Shown: one piece after another, positions 3,715 to 13,046 of the stretch
Position numbering within the stretch: position 1 is the stretch's first letter
Layout: every line of letters begins with the position of its first letter
NCBI GenBank assembly: GCA_016794525.1
Contig: JAEUJY010000166.1
Coordinates: forward strand, 1 to 64,000
Source: Myxococcales bacterium
GTDB taxonomy: Bacteria > Myxococcota_A > Polyangia > Haliangiales > Haliangiaceae
Length of the DNA stretch: 64,000 bases
Direction: 5' to 3'
The notes under the pieces: model-generated
What the model was told of the DNA's origin: nothing
Seen by the model: only the letters and a program-made list of their open reading frames with translations
The model's database searches: none
Position numbers and translations under genes: made by a program

Positions 3715-4062
3715 GTGGTGTTGCTGTCGGCGTGGGCGGTGCTGGTGACGCTCGAGGCGCCGTGGCTGGCGGCGCTGGGCGCGGCGCTGATCCTGGTGGC
3801 GGTGGCGCCGTTCTGGCTGCCGACCCACTACCGGCTCGACGACGGCGGCATCGAGGAGCGGCGCTGGCCGCGGCGCCGGCGCCGGACCTGGCCCGAGCTG
3901 CGCCGGGTCGAGGTCGGGCCGCGGGCGCTGCTGCTCTCGCCGTTCGCGCGACCGTCGTGGCTGGATCGCTACCGCGGCATGATCGTGATGTTCGATGGCG
4001 GCGACCGCGCGGCGATCGTGGCCGCGGTGCGGGCCCGGGTCGGCGGCGAGGGCGCGGCGTGA
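3715..4062 (+). CDS. Small membrane protein, first gene of the MutL-type operon
   Basis: 115 residues from the first conventional start, GTG 3715. Two closely spaced hydrophobic segments (MVLLSAWAVLVTLEAPWL and ALGAALILVAVAPFWL) form a membrane hairpin. A basic stretch (RRWPRRRRR) and a small globular C-terminal domain follow, which could be PH-like; that is a guess. The reading frame looks coding further upstream: residues reading LTWTAHPARRRPEQLALIAA precede the start, back to about 3652. No ATG, GTG or TTG is available there, so the true start may be a CTG near 3655 or the GTGs at 3715/3718. It overlaps the next gene by 4 bases. Confidence 0.65.
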   Translation: MVLLSAWAVLVTLEAPWLAALGAALILVAVAPFWLPTHYRLDDGGIEERRWPRRRRRTWPELRRVEVGPRALLLSPFARPSWLDRYRGMIVMFDGGDRAAIVAAVRARVGGEGAA

Positions 4063-4343
4063 CCGCGCGCGACGGGGGCGAGGCGGCGCTGACGGCCGAC
4101 GATCGGGCGATGCTCGACGAGCTGGCCGACGCGATCGCCGCGCGTCGGCTCACCTCGGCGGCGATCTTCTTCCTCGAGTCGATCCAGCCGCTCGGCTACC
4201 TGGGCAGCCAGCTGATGCTGGGGCTGCGGCCGCTGGTGTCGATCGTCTGGCCGTCGCCGCTGCGCTGGGATCAGGTGCAGCGGGTGCTCGAGCAGCGCGG
4301 GTCGATCGAGGCGCTGCTGCGCCGGCTCGAGGCCCGGGCCTAG
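4059..4343 (+). CDS. Small conserved-looking helical protein in the MutL-type operon
   Basis: 94 residues, starting at a GTG that overlaps the previous stop by 4 bases, so translation is probably coupled. Mainly helical, with a central hydrophobic motif FFLESIQPLGYLGSQLML (about residues 32-49) and LVSIVWPSPLRWDQVQRVLE after it. This could be an amphipathic or membrane-associated helix pair. No named family was recognised. Its position, 37 bases before the MutL-type gene and translationally coupled to a membrane protein, suggests an accessory subunit of the same complex. Confidence 0.6.
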   Translation: MTARDGGEAALTADDRAMLDELADAIAARRLTSAAIFFLESIQPLGYLGSQLMLGLRPLVSIVWPSPLRWDQVQRVLEQRGSIEALLRRLEARA

Positions 4344-4380
4344 GCCGGCCCGCGTCGCGCCCGTGATACAACGACGGCCG

Positions 4381-10632: not shown

Positions 10633-11633
10633 CCGCGCTGCCGTGGATCGACGTCGTCGGCTACTGGGTCGGCATCTTCATCACGTTCTGCTGCCTCTCG
10701 TTCCTGTACAAGGACAACCCGTTCTACAAGCTGATCGAGCACCTCTTCATCGGCGTTTCGGTCGGCTACCTGATCGTCCTGCAGTACGGCGACAACATCG
10801 AGCCCAAGGTCGTCGACGCGATCTTCGGCGGCGGCGTCCACGGCGTCTGGCTGGCGCTGCGCGCGGTCGCGCTGGTGCTGGTGGTGATGATGTTCGTCAA
10901 GGTGCTGCAGCCGCGCTGGGCGTGGCTGGGGCGCTACCCGCTGGCGTTCGTCGTCGCGTTCTACGCCGGCCTGCAGGTCAACGCGGTCGCGCAGTCCGAG
11001 CTGGGCGAGCAGATCAAGTTCTCGGCCGGCTCGATCGACGCGCCCAAGGTCGACCTCAACCACGCCGCGCCCGAGGCGCTGACCGCGCTGCCGGGCAGCT
11101 CGCCGGCGGTGGCCAAGAAGTGGATCGCCGAGCGCGCGCAGCGGCCGTTCGCCAGCCTCGACGACGCCGCCACCCGGCCCAGCCTGACGCCGCTCGAGCG
11201 CGACGACCTGGCGGCGGCCCGGGGCTCGCTGGTCGGCCTCGACGCCCGGGCCGCGGTCGAGCCCGGGCACCACGACGGCTTCGGCATCGCCTCGAACCTG
11301 CTGCTCCTGGCCGGGCTGCTGGCGTCGCTGGTGTACTTCTACTTCTCGGTCGCCCACCGCGGGCCGATCGGCGGCATCTCCCGGTTCGGCGTGTGGACGC
11401 TGATGATCGGGTTCGGCGCCAGCTTCGGCCTGACCGTCCAGGGCCGCATCTCGCTGGCCATCGGCCGCGCCTACGACGTGCTCGGGCGCACGCTGGCGCC
11501 CCAGGACGCCGCCCGGGTCCACGGCCCGCTGGTGTCGCTGGTGTCGATCGGGCTCATCACCGCCGGCATCGTCATCTGGGAGCGGCGGACCCGGGATCGT
11601 GGTGACGGGCCTGGCGCCGACGGCCAGAGCTGA
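10629..11633 (+). CDS. Polytopic membrane protein with a helix-hairpin-helix insert, MutL-type operon
   Basis: 334 residues from GTG 10629. About four helices come first (VGIFITFCCLSFLY, LFIGVSVGYLIVLQY, ALRAVALVLVVMMFVKVL, LAFVVAFYAGLQVNAV) and three follow (NLLLLAGLLASLVYFYFS, TLMIGFGASFGLTV, LVSIGLITAGIVIWE). Between them, about residues 138-180, sits a ComEA-type helix-hairpin-helix: VDLNHAAPEALTALPG, then AVAKKWIAERAQRPFASLDD. HhH motifs usually bind DNA or act as protein contacts; finding one between membrane helices is unusual. Fifteen bases separate its stop from the LolC/E-like gene. Confidence 0.68.
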   Translation: MTALPWIDVVGYWVGIFITFCCLSFLYKDNPFYKLIEHLFIGVSVGYLIVLQYGDNIEPKVVDAIFGGGVHGVWLALRAVALVLVVMMFVKVLQPRWAWLGRYPLAFVVAFYAGLQVNAVAQSELGEQIKFSAGSIDAPKVDLNHAAPEALTALPGSSPAVAKKWIAERAQRPFASLDDAATRPSLTPLERDDLAAARGSLVGLDARAAVEPGHHDGFGIASNLLLLAGLLASLVYFYFSVAHRGPIGGISRFGVWTLMIGFGASFGLTVQGRISLAIGRAYDVLGRTLAPQDAARVHGPLVSLVSIGLITAGIVIWERRTRDRGDGPGADGQS

Positions 11634-11648
11634 TAGGTTCCACGGCGC

Positions 11649-13046
11649 GTGTCCTACGAACTGCAGATCGGCTGGCGCTACCTGTACGCCGGCCACCGCG
11701 AGCCGGGGTTGATCGTGGGCTTCCTGGTGTCGCTGCTGGTCGCGGCGATCGGGCTGGGCCTGGTGTTGACGCTGGGGTCGGGCCACGCGATCGGCGTGGT
11801 GCTGCTGCTGATCGGGCTGGTGTCGGCGGCGGTGTTCGGGCTGCTGACGACGCTGTCGGTGTCGAGCGCGGTGGCCGTGCTCGGCGTCGTGCTCGGGGTC
11901 GCCGCGCTGACCGTCGTCCTGTCGGTGACGACCGGCTTCCAGGATCAGTTCCGCGACAAGGTGCTGGGCGTCAACGCCCACGTCATCATCATGAAGAGCT
12001 CCACCGACTTCGCCGAGTACCGCGACGTCATGGACACCGCGCGCACGATCGATCGCGACGTCGTCGCGGTGCAGCCGTTCAACTTCCTCGAGCTGCTCGC
12101 GACCACCGGCCGCGGCCGGATCTCGGGCGTCGCGGTCAAGGGCGTCGACCCCGAGCTGGTGTCGCAGGTGCTCGACCTCGAGAAGCACATGATCGAGGGC
12201 AGCCTCGACAGCCTCAAGGTGAAGTCGAGCGACACCGTCCTGCCGAACATCATCGTCGGCAAGGAGCTGGCGCGGAAGCTGCGCATCGGCGTCGGCGACC
12301 AGGTCACGATCGTCGTGCCGCTGTCGAACATCGACTTCGAGACCTGGCGCAGCAAGGCCACCGCGCCCAAGACCCGCCGGTTCCAGGTGTCGGGCATCTT
12401 CTACAGCGGCTTCGAGGAGTACGACCGCCGGCTGATGTACACCAGCCTGGTCGAGACCCAGGTGCTGCTCGAGCGCGGCGACCGGGTCATGGGCGTCGAG
12501 CTCAAGGTCAAGGACGTCGACCGCGCCGCGGCGATCGCGGCCAAGCTGCGCAAGGAGCTGGGCGAGCCGCCGTTCCAGGTGCAGGACTGGTACGAGCTCA
12601 ACCACAACCTGTTCAAGGCGCTGACCACGCAGAAGCTGGTGCTGCTGATCGTGCTGACGCTGATCATCGCGGTGGCGACGGTCAACCTGGTGTCGGCGCT
12701 GACGATGATGGTCACCGACAAGGTGCGCGAGATCGCGATCCTCAAGTCGATGGGCGCGCCGTCGCAAGGCATCGGCGTGGCGTTCGTCGTCGTCGGCGGC
12801 GCGATCGGCGTGCTCGGCACCGCGGTCGGCATCGGCCTCGGCGTCGCGACCTGCGTCGTCGTGCGCGGCTACGGCTACCGGCTCGATCCCAAGGTCTACC
12901 TGATCGATCGGCTGCCCATCAGCATGCGCCCGTCGGAGATCCTGCTGGTCGCCGGCATCACGATGGCGCTGTGCCTGGTGGCGACCTTGATCCCGACGTT
13001 CAAGGCGGCGAGCCTGCGGCCGGTGGTCGGGCTGCGCCACGATTAG
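11649..13046 (+). CDS. LolC/LolE-like (FtsX-fold) ABC transporter permease
   Basis: 465 residues from GTG 11649. The N-terminus MSYELQIGWRYLYAG matches LolC/E permeases, which with ATPase LolD extract lipoproteins from the inner membrane. A MacB-type periplasmic domain (about 95-310, FQDQFRDKVLGVNAHVIIMK) is followed by the FtsX core: LVLLIVLTLIIAVATVNLVS, the loop KVREIAILKSMGA, and two more helices. Unusually, two extra hydrophobic segments lie at about residues 20-60, before the normal first helix. No LolD-type ATPase gene is in the window. It lies 15 bases after the MutL-type membrane genes and is probably cotranscribed; a link to the many lipoproteins nearby is inference. Confidence 0.85.
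   Translation: MSYELQIGWRYLYAGHREPGLIVGFLVSLLVAAIGLGLVLTLGSGHAIGVVLLLIGLVSAAVFGLLTTLSVSSAVAVLGVVLGVAALTVVLSVTTGFQDQFRDKVLGVNAHVIIMKSSTDFAEYRDVMDTARTIDRDVVAVQPFNFLELLATTGRGRISGVAVKGVDPELVSQVLDLEKHMIEGSLDSLKVKSSDTVLPNIIVGKELARKLRIGVGDQVTIVVPLSNIDFETWRSKATAPKTRRFQVSGIFYSGFEEYDRRLMYTSLVETQVLLERGDRVMGVELKVKDVDRAAAIAAKLRKELGEPPFQVQDWYELNHNLFKALTTQKLVLLIVLTLIIAVATVNLVSALTMMVTDKVREIAILKSMGAPSQGIGVAFVVVGGAIGVLGTAVGIGLGVATCVVVRGYGYRLDPKVYLIDRLPISMRPSEILLVAGITMALCLVATLIPTFKAASLRPVVGLRHD

Follow-up and report, generated by a model that had tools for sequence, protein, structure and literature searches.

Positions 1-64,000 of contig JAEUJY010000166.1 (assembly GCA_016794525.1; a Myxococcales bacterium of the Haliangiaceae) form the stretch of 64,000 nucleotides analysed here, which is referred to as the window. 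At 3655-13046 it contains nine plus-strand genes, g1 to g9, of which g3 encodes an ATPase of the MutL/GlmL family and g5 to g8 encode membrane proteins. This arrangement raises the question of what a MutL-type protein does among genes for membrane proteins. We found that g1 to g8 are one conserved system and that the operon is real. Its MutL-type protein has long carried the name of a B12 enzyme, yet it seems to act as an engine that several membrane units share, and not as a helper of an enzyme.

An eight-gene core conserved across phyla

The nine genes are tightly packed. When their spacing was read directly from the window, g1/g2, g4/g5, g5/g6 and g7/g8 were found to overlap by 4 bases each and g6/g7 by 1 base, while gaps of 37, 21 and 15 bases separate g2 from g3, g3 from g4, and g8 from g9, respectively; these values agree with those of an earlier first-pass annotation of this DNA. 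The G+C content of the locus is 71-76% and it contains many spurious long frames, so that an open frame is little proof of a gene, and the genes were therefore judged by their homologues. Each of the nine is backed by protein-level homologues that other genomes carry in the same order, as detected by tblastn and profile searches in other Myxococcota and in other phyla. The start of g1 had been placed at 3715 in the first-pass annotation. However, the conserved motif LTWTAHPARRRP is located upstream of that position, and the start is therefore probably near 3655 (CTG, or ATC at 3652).

The conservation of gene order was surveyed in 90 loci chosen because they contain DUF6754, the cytoplasmic domain of g5. 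These are 11 Myxococcota stretches (L014-L024) and 79 loci (L026-L104) out of the 80 relatives that ranked best, being closest to the query, among 573 confirmed ones; L025 was left out as its contig is as long as that of L017 (149568), and some genomes contribute two loci. Each frame was assigned to its best-matching family, since the g4 profile also took in MutL frames (genome-wide g4 counts come from a cleaner g4 alignment), and gene order was counted by the aligned midpoint of each gene. The groups covered include Fermentibacteria, Zixiibacteriota, Eisenbacteria, Riflebacteria, WOR-3/Stahlbacteria, Cloacimonadota, Latescibacterota and Planctomycetota, as well as Methylomirabilis, Gemmatimonadaceae, Effluviviaceae and Edwardsbacteria.

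The exact order g1 to g8 was found in 21 of the 90 loci, including loci of Myxococcota, Fermentibacteria, Eisenbacteria, Latescibacterota and Planctomycetota, which argues against a chance association of these genes. By construction g5 is present in all loci; g4 is present in 40 and g3 in 39, and the counts for the other core genes are given in Table 1. All of these counts are lower bounds because many contigs stop inside the cluster. The 39 loci with g3 include two in which it is part of a fused protein (L088, L089) and one with a 68-residue remnant (L015:10698-10904, minus strand, genome G008). This remnant resembles the N-terminus of MutL, lies directly upstream of g5 and is likely a decayed engine gene; a search of genome G008 gave no MutL match at E<=0.001. 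In 12 loci, g5 to g8 form tandem arrays of two or three copies. The core is thus made up of eight genes: a cytoplasmic module, g1 to g4, and a membrane quartet, g5 to g8.

The ninth gene is different in this respect. Its product matches FtsX and MacB_PCD of Pfam, and its match to TIGR02212 (Table 1) spans residues 70-464 and is below the cut-off of 362.45 bits. It is present in only four surveyed loci (L016, L017, L026 and L027), all from the window's order, and in the other 86 no g9 was seen behind g8. Within that order it comes after g8 in every one of 13 loci examined, two of which (L026 and L027) also belong to the survey. No LolD gene was found beside g9 in the window, where the adjacent gene only was looked at; this gene (13226-16942, minus strand) is convergent with g9 and encodes a large serine/threonine kinase-AAA_16 protein. 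Hence, g9 is a partner within the window's order and lies outside the cross-phylum core, in which the first-pass annotation's LolC/E-like permease has no place. Two genomes of the order have a tandem duplicate of g9 (L017:11575-14439 and L185). All of g1 to g9 are carried by G363 (L173), a genome of the same order of only 1.6 Mb (98% complete, 4% contamination). This genome also keeps the enoyl-CoA hydratase gene that is the upstream neighbour of the operon in the window (assigned by Pfam); the other sampled genomes of the order measure 3.6-12.2 Mb.

Neither a mobile element nor a defence island is suggested by the searches. No match to DUF6754 was present in plasmid and phage collections, and a role in anti-phage defence was rejected, the only match in a defence-family scan run without g1 being that of g2 to DrmC at 0.019.

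Table 1. Genes of the operon, with their positions in the window, predicted features and main evidence
Gene and product	Position	Strand	Evidence
g1, small membrane protein, hydrophobic N-terminal half followed by a charged tail	3655..4062	+	homologues adjoining g2 in 24/90 loci; start predicted
g2, small protein with conserved motif AIFFLES-KPLSFLGSQ	4059..4343	+	homologues in 31/90 loci
g3, long MutL-type ASKHA ATPase with conserved C-terminal extension	4381..6222	+	PF13941, 9.9e-126; ATPase motifs
g4, adaptor: barrel-sandwich region, alpha/beta middle, KOW/SH3-like tail	6244..7365	+	Pfam matches of the family; MutL fusions
g5, signal segment, extracytoplasmic FN3, transmembrane segment, cytoplasmic Rossmann-like DUF6754 domain, transmembrane segment	7362..8765	+	PF20539, 3.5e-102
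g6, six transmembrane segments, N-in by charge, extracytoplasmic insert ~88-192	8762..9682	+	homologues in 85/90 loci; hydropathy and charge
g7, transmembrane segment, extracytoplasmic Rossmann-like domain, transmembrane segment	9682..10632	+	homologues in 83/90 loci; model; hydropathy and charge
g8, six transmembrane segments, N-out by charge, helix-hairpin-helix insert	10629..11633	+	homologues in 81/90 loci; HHH_3; hydropathy and charge
g9, LolC/E-like FtsX/MacB permease	11649..13046	+	TIGR02212, 298.5 bits; follows g8 within the order

The long MutL-type ATPase and its probable adaptor

The assignment of g3 to the MutL/GlmL family of ASKHA ATPases, already made in the first-pass annotation, was confirmed by a match to PF13941 of 420.6 bits against a gathering score of 27. 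Its sequence is 58-85% identical to those of 28 aligned relatives, several of which come from other phyla (28 of the 33 eligible rows, aligned together with the window sequence). The motifs DCGSTTTK, DIGGATTD and GSGG, which we take to be the phosphate-1, phosphate-2 and adenosine motifs of ASKHA ATPases, are invariant in all 29 sequences. g3 is thus a predicted ATPase with intact ASKHA motifs. A profile search of the PDB with g3 gave nothing significant.

Does this protein serve a B12-dependent mutase? The first-pass annotation had proposed that the mutase link is not its general role, and several lines of evidence are in agreement with this. First, g3 is the only MutL of its own genome, where no glutamate mutase E (PF06368, Met_asp_mut_E) scored over the cut-off. 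Second, none of 43 further genomes with DUF6754 has a glutamate mutase E over the cut-off, although two of them (G269 and G277) gave sub-threshold matches; most relatives therefore do not have this mutase adjacent to the operon. Among the 55 genomes searched for it, only G035 and G206 scored over the cut-off, and neither has DUF6754 or g4. The MutLs of these two genomes are short and have the genes of mutase subunits S and E, each over its curated cut-off, on either side (L168 and L169). Two other short MutLs (L170 and L172) adjoin a D-ornithine aminomutase OraE that is also over its cut-off, and for a fifth (L171) no recognised mutase was seen in the adjoining frame examined. Hence, four of the five short MutLs checked adjoin a B12 mutase.

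Third, the short MutLs are set apart in a phylogenetic tree. The tree contained 43 rows, namely 29 from operons, nine labelled as fused and five short ones; L167, labelled as fused, is an unfused neighbour pair, L088 is represented by L166, and L089 was left out. The 38 operon and fused rows split from the five short MutLs on a branch of length 5.03 with support 100/99, a length that calls for a long-branch warning; the midpoint root serves for drawing only. The operon and fused groups themselves are poorly separated (53/80 and 86/44). A role of g3 as a mutase helper was rejected on these grounds, together with the fusions to g4 described below. A related possibility is that this MutL still serves a B12-dependent mutase encoded elsewhere in the genome, the operon being a historical cluster. 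The PF13941 match would fit with this, as would the fact that the nearest NCBIfam models are GlmL-type. However, g3 scores under all three curated cut-offs of these models (226.7/475, 217.1/600 and 168.5/204.05 bits), no Met_asp_mut_E was found over the cut-off in its own genome or the 43 others (aminomutases were not searched genome-wide), its branch is separate from that of the mutase-linked MutLs, and the long MutL is fused to g4 in some genomes. We consider this possibility highly improbable. The nearest curated names for g3, those of mutase accessory proteins, appear to be wrong for the whole long-MutL branch.

Single frames of 919-982 amino acids that encode MutL followed by g4 were read directly in eight loci (L159-L166), and further cases are present in the genome match lists. 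In the genome match lists, the g4 part of the fused proteins does not reach the KOW tail, its matches ending near position 300 of 376. Most fused genes are located away from quartets; those of L166 (on the contig of L088) and L089 are near one. Such fusions are strong evidence of a working partnership between g3 and g4.

The g4 protein is 44-77% identical to 37 aligned relatives (37 of 37 eligible rows, aligned with the window sequence). The window copy matches RnfC_N only weakly (E 0.02, 15.3 bits against a cut-off of 25.6). Among the 38 aligned members of the family, 22 match RnfC_N, 19 Biotin_lipoyl, three NQRA_N and two KOW at E<=0.01, in line with the KOW/barrel-sandwich protein that had been described initially. 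A role as lipoyl or biotin carrier was rejected, as the hairpin has no conserved lysine in the 13 of the 38 rows that were inspected. A profile search of the PDB with g4 yielded neither RnfC nor NqrA at E<=5, and nothing significant.

The cytoplasmic module and the quartet also occur together at the level of whole genomes. Among 235 Myxococcota genomes, 11 have DUF6754, nine have g4 and 13 have a MutL over the cut-off, ten of them of the long form. DUF6754 and g4 share eight genomes, DUF6754 and long MutL eight, and g4 and long MutL nine (hypergeometric p = 7e-12, 4e-11 and 2e-15, respectively; these values are uncorrected for relatedness and hence indicative). At the level of families, taking 32 families by the highest label listed, p is 7.7e-6, again uncorrected for relatedness. 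Of the 43 further DUF6754 genomes, which were reached via other loci, 42 have g4 and 41 have MutL. In 60 genomes of the phylum WOR-3, to which G265 belongs, DUF6754 is present in 54 and g4 in 55, and both are missing in three. In the window's own order, DUF6754 is present in 18 of 35 genomes.

This association is not just a consequence of gene linkage, because the modules persist together in genomes in which they are unlinked. In G001 and G154, MutL and g4 share one contig and DUF6754 is on another. On contig C1 of G265, which is nearly the whole genome, the only MutL is at 1.295 Mb, the only g4 is at 1.403 Mb, and six DUF6754 genes are spread. The copy numbers of the two modules also differ. 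The 43 genomes contain 130 DUF6754 matches, one to seven each (fragments and lone genes included), whereas full-length g4 and the stand-alone long MutL are usually present in a single copy. We therefore propose that one engine is shared by several quartets.

The membrane quartet and the proposed engine

The topologies of g5 to g8 were predicted from hydropathy and charge on alignments (rows used/eligible, plus the window: g5 40/92, g6 43/101, g7 48/97 and g8 37/95), and g5 and g7 were each modelled as a single chain. g5 matches DUF6754 with 341.4 bits against a gathering score of 27. Following its signal segment and outer domain, a transmembrane segment leads into the cytoplasm, where a domain of about 200 residues precedes the final transmembrane segment. 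The outer part is an FN3 domain both by profile and by fold (best Z 12.6; predicted local distance difference test score, pLDDT, of the model 81.2). Of the 43 columns that are invariant in 41 sequences, 42 are located from residue 248 on, and CDYTxxGEE is among the invariant positions. The core of this region, residues 250-423, aligns to the Sir2-type Rossmann fold of 1s7g (Z 12.0, root-mean-square deviation 3.3, 138 residues).

The g7 model (pLDDT 93.6, predicted template modelling score 0.90) is Rossmann-like and aligns to many Rossmann folds, with best Z 8.8 for 1kjn and 8.1 for CODH/ACS epsilon; no family was assigned, as these scores are too even. The first-pass annotation had listed four membrane proteins of which one has a large extracytoplasmic domain. 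This holds for g7, but g5 has an outer FN3 domain as well. The helix-hairpin-helix insert described for one membrane protein is that of g8 (HHH_3, 3.7e-05; residues ~130-215), which is in a predicted outer loop and is not aligned in most relatives. The g6 insert, likewise in a predicted outer loop, is missing from most relatives. Foldseek searches against the PDB gave no match at E<=0.001 for g5 or g7; by sequence, the PDB yielded only FN3 for g5 and nothing significant for g7. No function was recognised for any of g5 to g8, and g1, g2 and g7 had no match in a Pfam scan of the window proteins. Homology within the pairs g5-g7, g6-g8, g4-g5 and g4-g7 was unsupported in profile comparison.

Starting from the gene linkage, the co-occurrence, the fusions, the copy-number asymmetry, the intact ATPase motifs and the predicted fold classes, we propose an ATP-driven inner-membrane machine with one shared engine and several membrane clients, a reading on which we are almost evenly divided, leaning slightly towards doubt. 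That engine and quartet are linked we regard as well supported and quite probable. The cytoplasmic engine would be the g3 ATPase acting through the adaptor g4, aided by g1 and g2. In the quartet, g5 would provide a cytoplasmic Rossmann-like docking domain and its outer FN3 domain; g6 and g8, with opposite predicted topologies, would jointly cross the membrane about 12 times; and g7 would keep its Rossmann-like domain outside. In binding and hydrolysing ATP, the engine would switch from a closed to an open state and back and, by physical contact, remodel or gate the quartet, and a single engine would serve several quartets in this way. The remodelling step is inferred from the behaviour of MutL-like reactivating ATPases, which remodel their enzyme partners. 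The quartet may pass or sense a small molecule across the inner membrane; such transport or sensing as output is a tentative suggestion that we deem somewhat unlikely.

Several observations weigh against this proposal. g5 can occur without the quartet: g6 to g8 were not seen in four of the 90 loci, and in two of these (L062 and L078) the contigs continue, so that the DUF6754 genes there stand alone and DUF6754 counts overstate the number of quartets. The co-occurrence also has exceptions. Among the Myxococcota, G002, G008 and G151 (completeness 79, 94 and 83%) have DUF6754 without g4 or MutL, G117 has g4 and MutL without DUF6754, and G165 has a long MutL alone. Among the 43 further genomes, G243 is without g4 and MutL, G274 is without MutL, the MutL of G248 is a fragment only, and the g4 of G264 is weak and split. 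In WOR-3, G313 and G324 have DUF6754 without g4, and G283, G295 and G332 have g4 without DUF6754. The consensus sequences of g6 and g8 have no conserved cysteine beyond one weak position, and PDB profile searches with both gave nothing significant. Finally, no ASKHA ATPase is known to drive transport.

The strongest rival is that the quartet is a membrane enzyme with its active site in the Rossmann-like DUF6754 domain (CDYTxxGEE), and that MutL and g4 are an ATP-dependent maintenance factor, with nothing being transported. GlmL is thought to be such a factor for glutamate mutase. The membership of g3 in the MutL family, the short MutLs next to their B12 mutases, the clustering of invariant g5 columns from residue 248 on, the resemblance of the g5 core to the Sir2 fold and the central-metabolism genes found as neighbours (see below) would all be accounted for, and one factor could serve several enzyme copies. 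However, a common fold proves no function, no enzyme family was recognised in g5 to g8 with Pfam or NCBIfam, and the quartet has an FN3 domain and another Rossmann-like domain on the outer side of the membrane. On balance we hold this explanation to be possible but doubtful. Under the shared-engine proposal, the clear split between engine and clients makes the model directly testable.

Genomic neighbours and relation to known systems

Of the neighbouring proteins passing the filters, 75 of the 91 upstream and 60 of the 82 downstream ones were scanned; neighbours are named here by representatives on the basis of Pfam tallies and inspection by eye. Genes for glycine cleavage and lipoate attachment stand out: gcvPB is near 13 of the 44 loci with g3 or g4 and none of the 46 others, and lplA is near seven and one, respectively; GDC-P was matched by 16 of the 75 upstream and LplA-B_cat by seven of the 60 downstream proteins. 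In L102 the order is gcvT-gcvH-gcvPA-gcvPB-g1..g8-lplA, parts of which are present in L032, L050 and L081. This might point to a membrane complex linked to glycine cleavage or lipoate, which could, for instance, be an anchor for the glycine cleavage system or deal with the product of that system. However, there are no such genes in the window or in 31 of the 44 loci. Moreover, six of the 13 gcvPB loci are from Fermentibacteria or Aegiribacteria (the others include one Eisenbacterium and one Effluviviaceae genome), and the g4 hairpin is without a conserved lysine at the lipoyl position in the rows inspected. Such a complex appears improbable to us. Frequent neighbours of loci with only the quartet are, depending on the lineage, transketolase/serA or else ptsI/pgi and metK/ahcY.

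Other neighbours bear on the possibility of an envelope assembly or scaffold apparatus, in which the ATPase would build a trans-envelope structure that in the window's order is tied to lipoprotein export via g9. Actin-fold proteins act in pilus and secretion platforms, and an ASKHA ATPase together with bitopic and polytopic proteins would suit such an apparatus, as would the constant position of g9 after g8 within the order. TonB-dependent receptor-like genes are near 12 of the 44 loci with g3 or g4 and three of the 46 others, and PorV-like genes near five and two, respectively. Nevertheless, the window and most loci are without such neighbours, Fermentibacteria and Aegiribacteria together account for six of the 12 TonB-type loci, the commonest neighbours scanned include no pilin or secretion family, and no g9 was seen after g8 in the 86 other surveyed loci. 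We judge this apparatus unlikely.

Some further features of the window were observed. The intergenic region before g1 contains a perfect inverted repeat, with arms of 20 bases and a loop of 2 (3434-3475), followed by the mirror-image arrays (CCCGTG)5.7 at 3476-3509 and (CGGGCA)5.5 at 3578-3610 around a (CCGTCT)8.2 array, which together could form a large hairpin. No Rfam match over the gathering score was obtained for window positions 1-20000. Adjacent YcaO (7.1e-76) and TfuA-like (1.7e-42) genes are located at 17887-19811, a pair that in bacteria presumably points to thioamide or azoline modification of a peptide, and a second kinase gene is present at 19827-21968.

Literature searches, in which most subscription papers and preprints were not covered, retrieved no description of this system, and DUF6754 is named in no paper of the literature searched. 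The main text of PMC9727166 does not mention glutamate mutase, MutL or fibronectin, and the MutL of PMC10805038 is an unrelated one.

The system is nearly universal in at least one largely uncultivated phylum, WOR-3, where DUF6754 is found in 54 of the 60 genomes sampled. The ASKHA superfamily is known for chaperones, sugar kinases and the cytoskeleton, and if the engine drives the quartets, powering a membrane machine would be added to these roles. That this would be a new class of active membrane machine, with transport or transmembrane work ASKHA-powered instead of ABC (ATP-binding cassette), P-type or rotary, and with one engine for several quartets, we think rather doubtful.

Parts of the system resemble known ones. 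g3 shares the family, the ATP-binding motifs and the N-terminal ASKHA body of the B12-mutase-linked GlmL/MutL proteins (PF13941; NF040745, NF040744 and TIGR01319), but it differs from them by a C-terminal extension of about 110 residues, a branch of its own, the link and fusion to g4 and the presence of the membrane quartet, and no mutase gene was found. g5 is a member of DUF6754 (PF20539), a family to which Pfam assigns no function; the present analysis adds the FN3 domain, the partners and a likely engine. The g4 family has matches to the barrel-sandwich subunits RnfC (22 of 38) and NqrA (three of 38), but g4 has a KOW-like tail and g5 to g8 match no Rnf or Nqr family at E<=1. g9 resembles LolC/LolE below the TIGR02212 cut-off, and lies outside the core; its neighbour in the window is not a LolD gene. 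Finally, in the energy-coupling factor (ECF) transporters one energy module is shared by several membrane modules. The copy numbers observed here fit such an arrangement, in which the sharing itself would be the common principle. The engine predicted here is of the ASKHA type, and g1 to g9 have no ABC_tran or EcfT match at E<=1.

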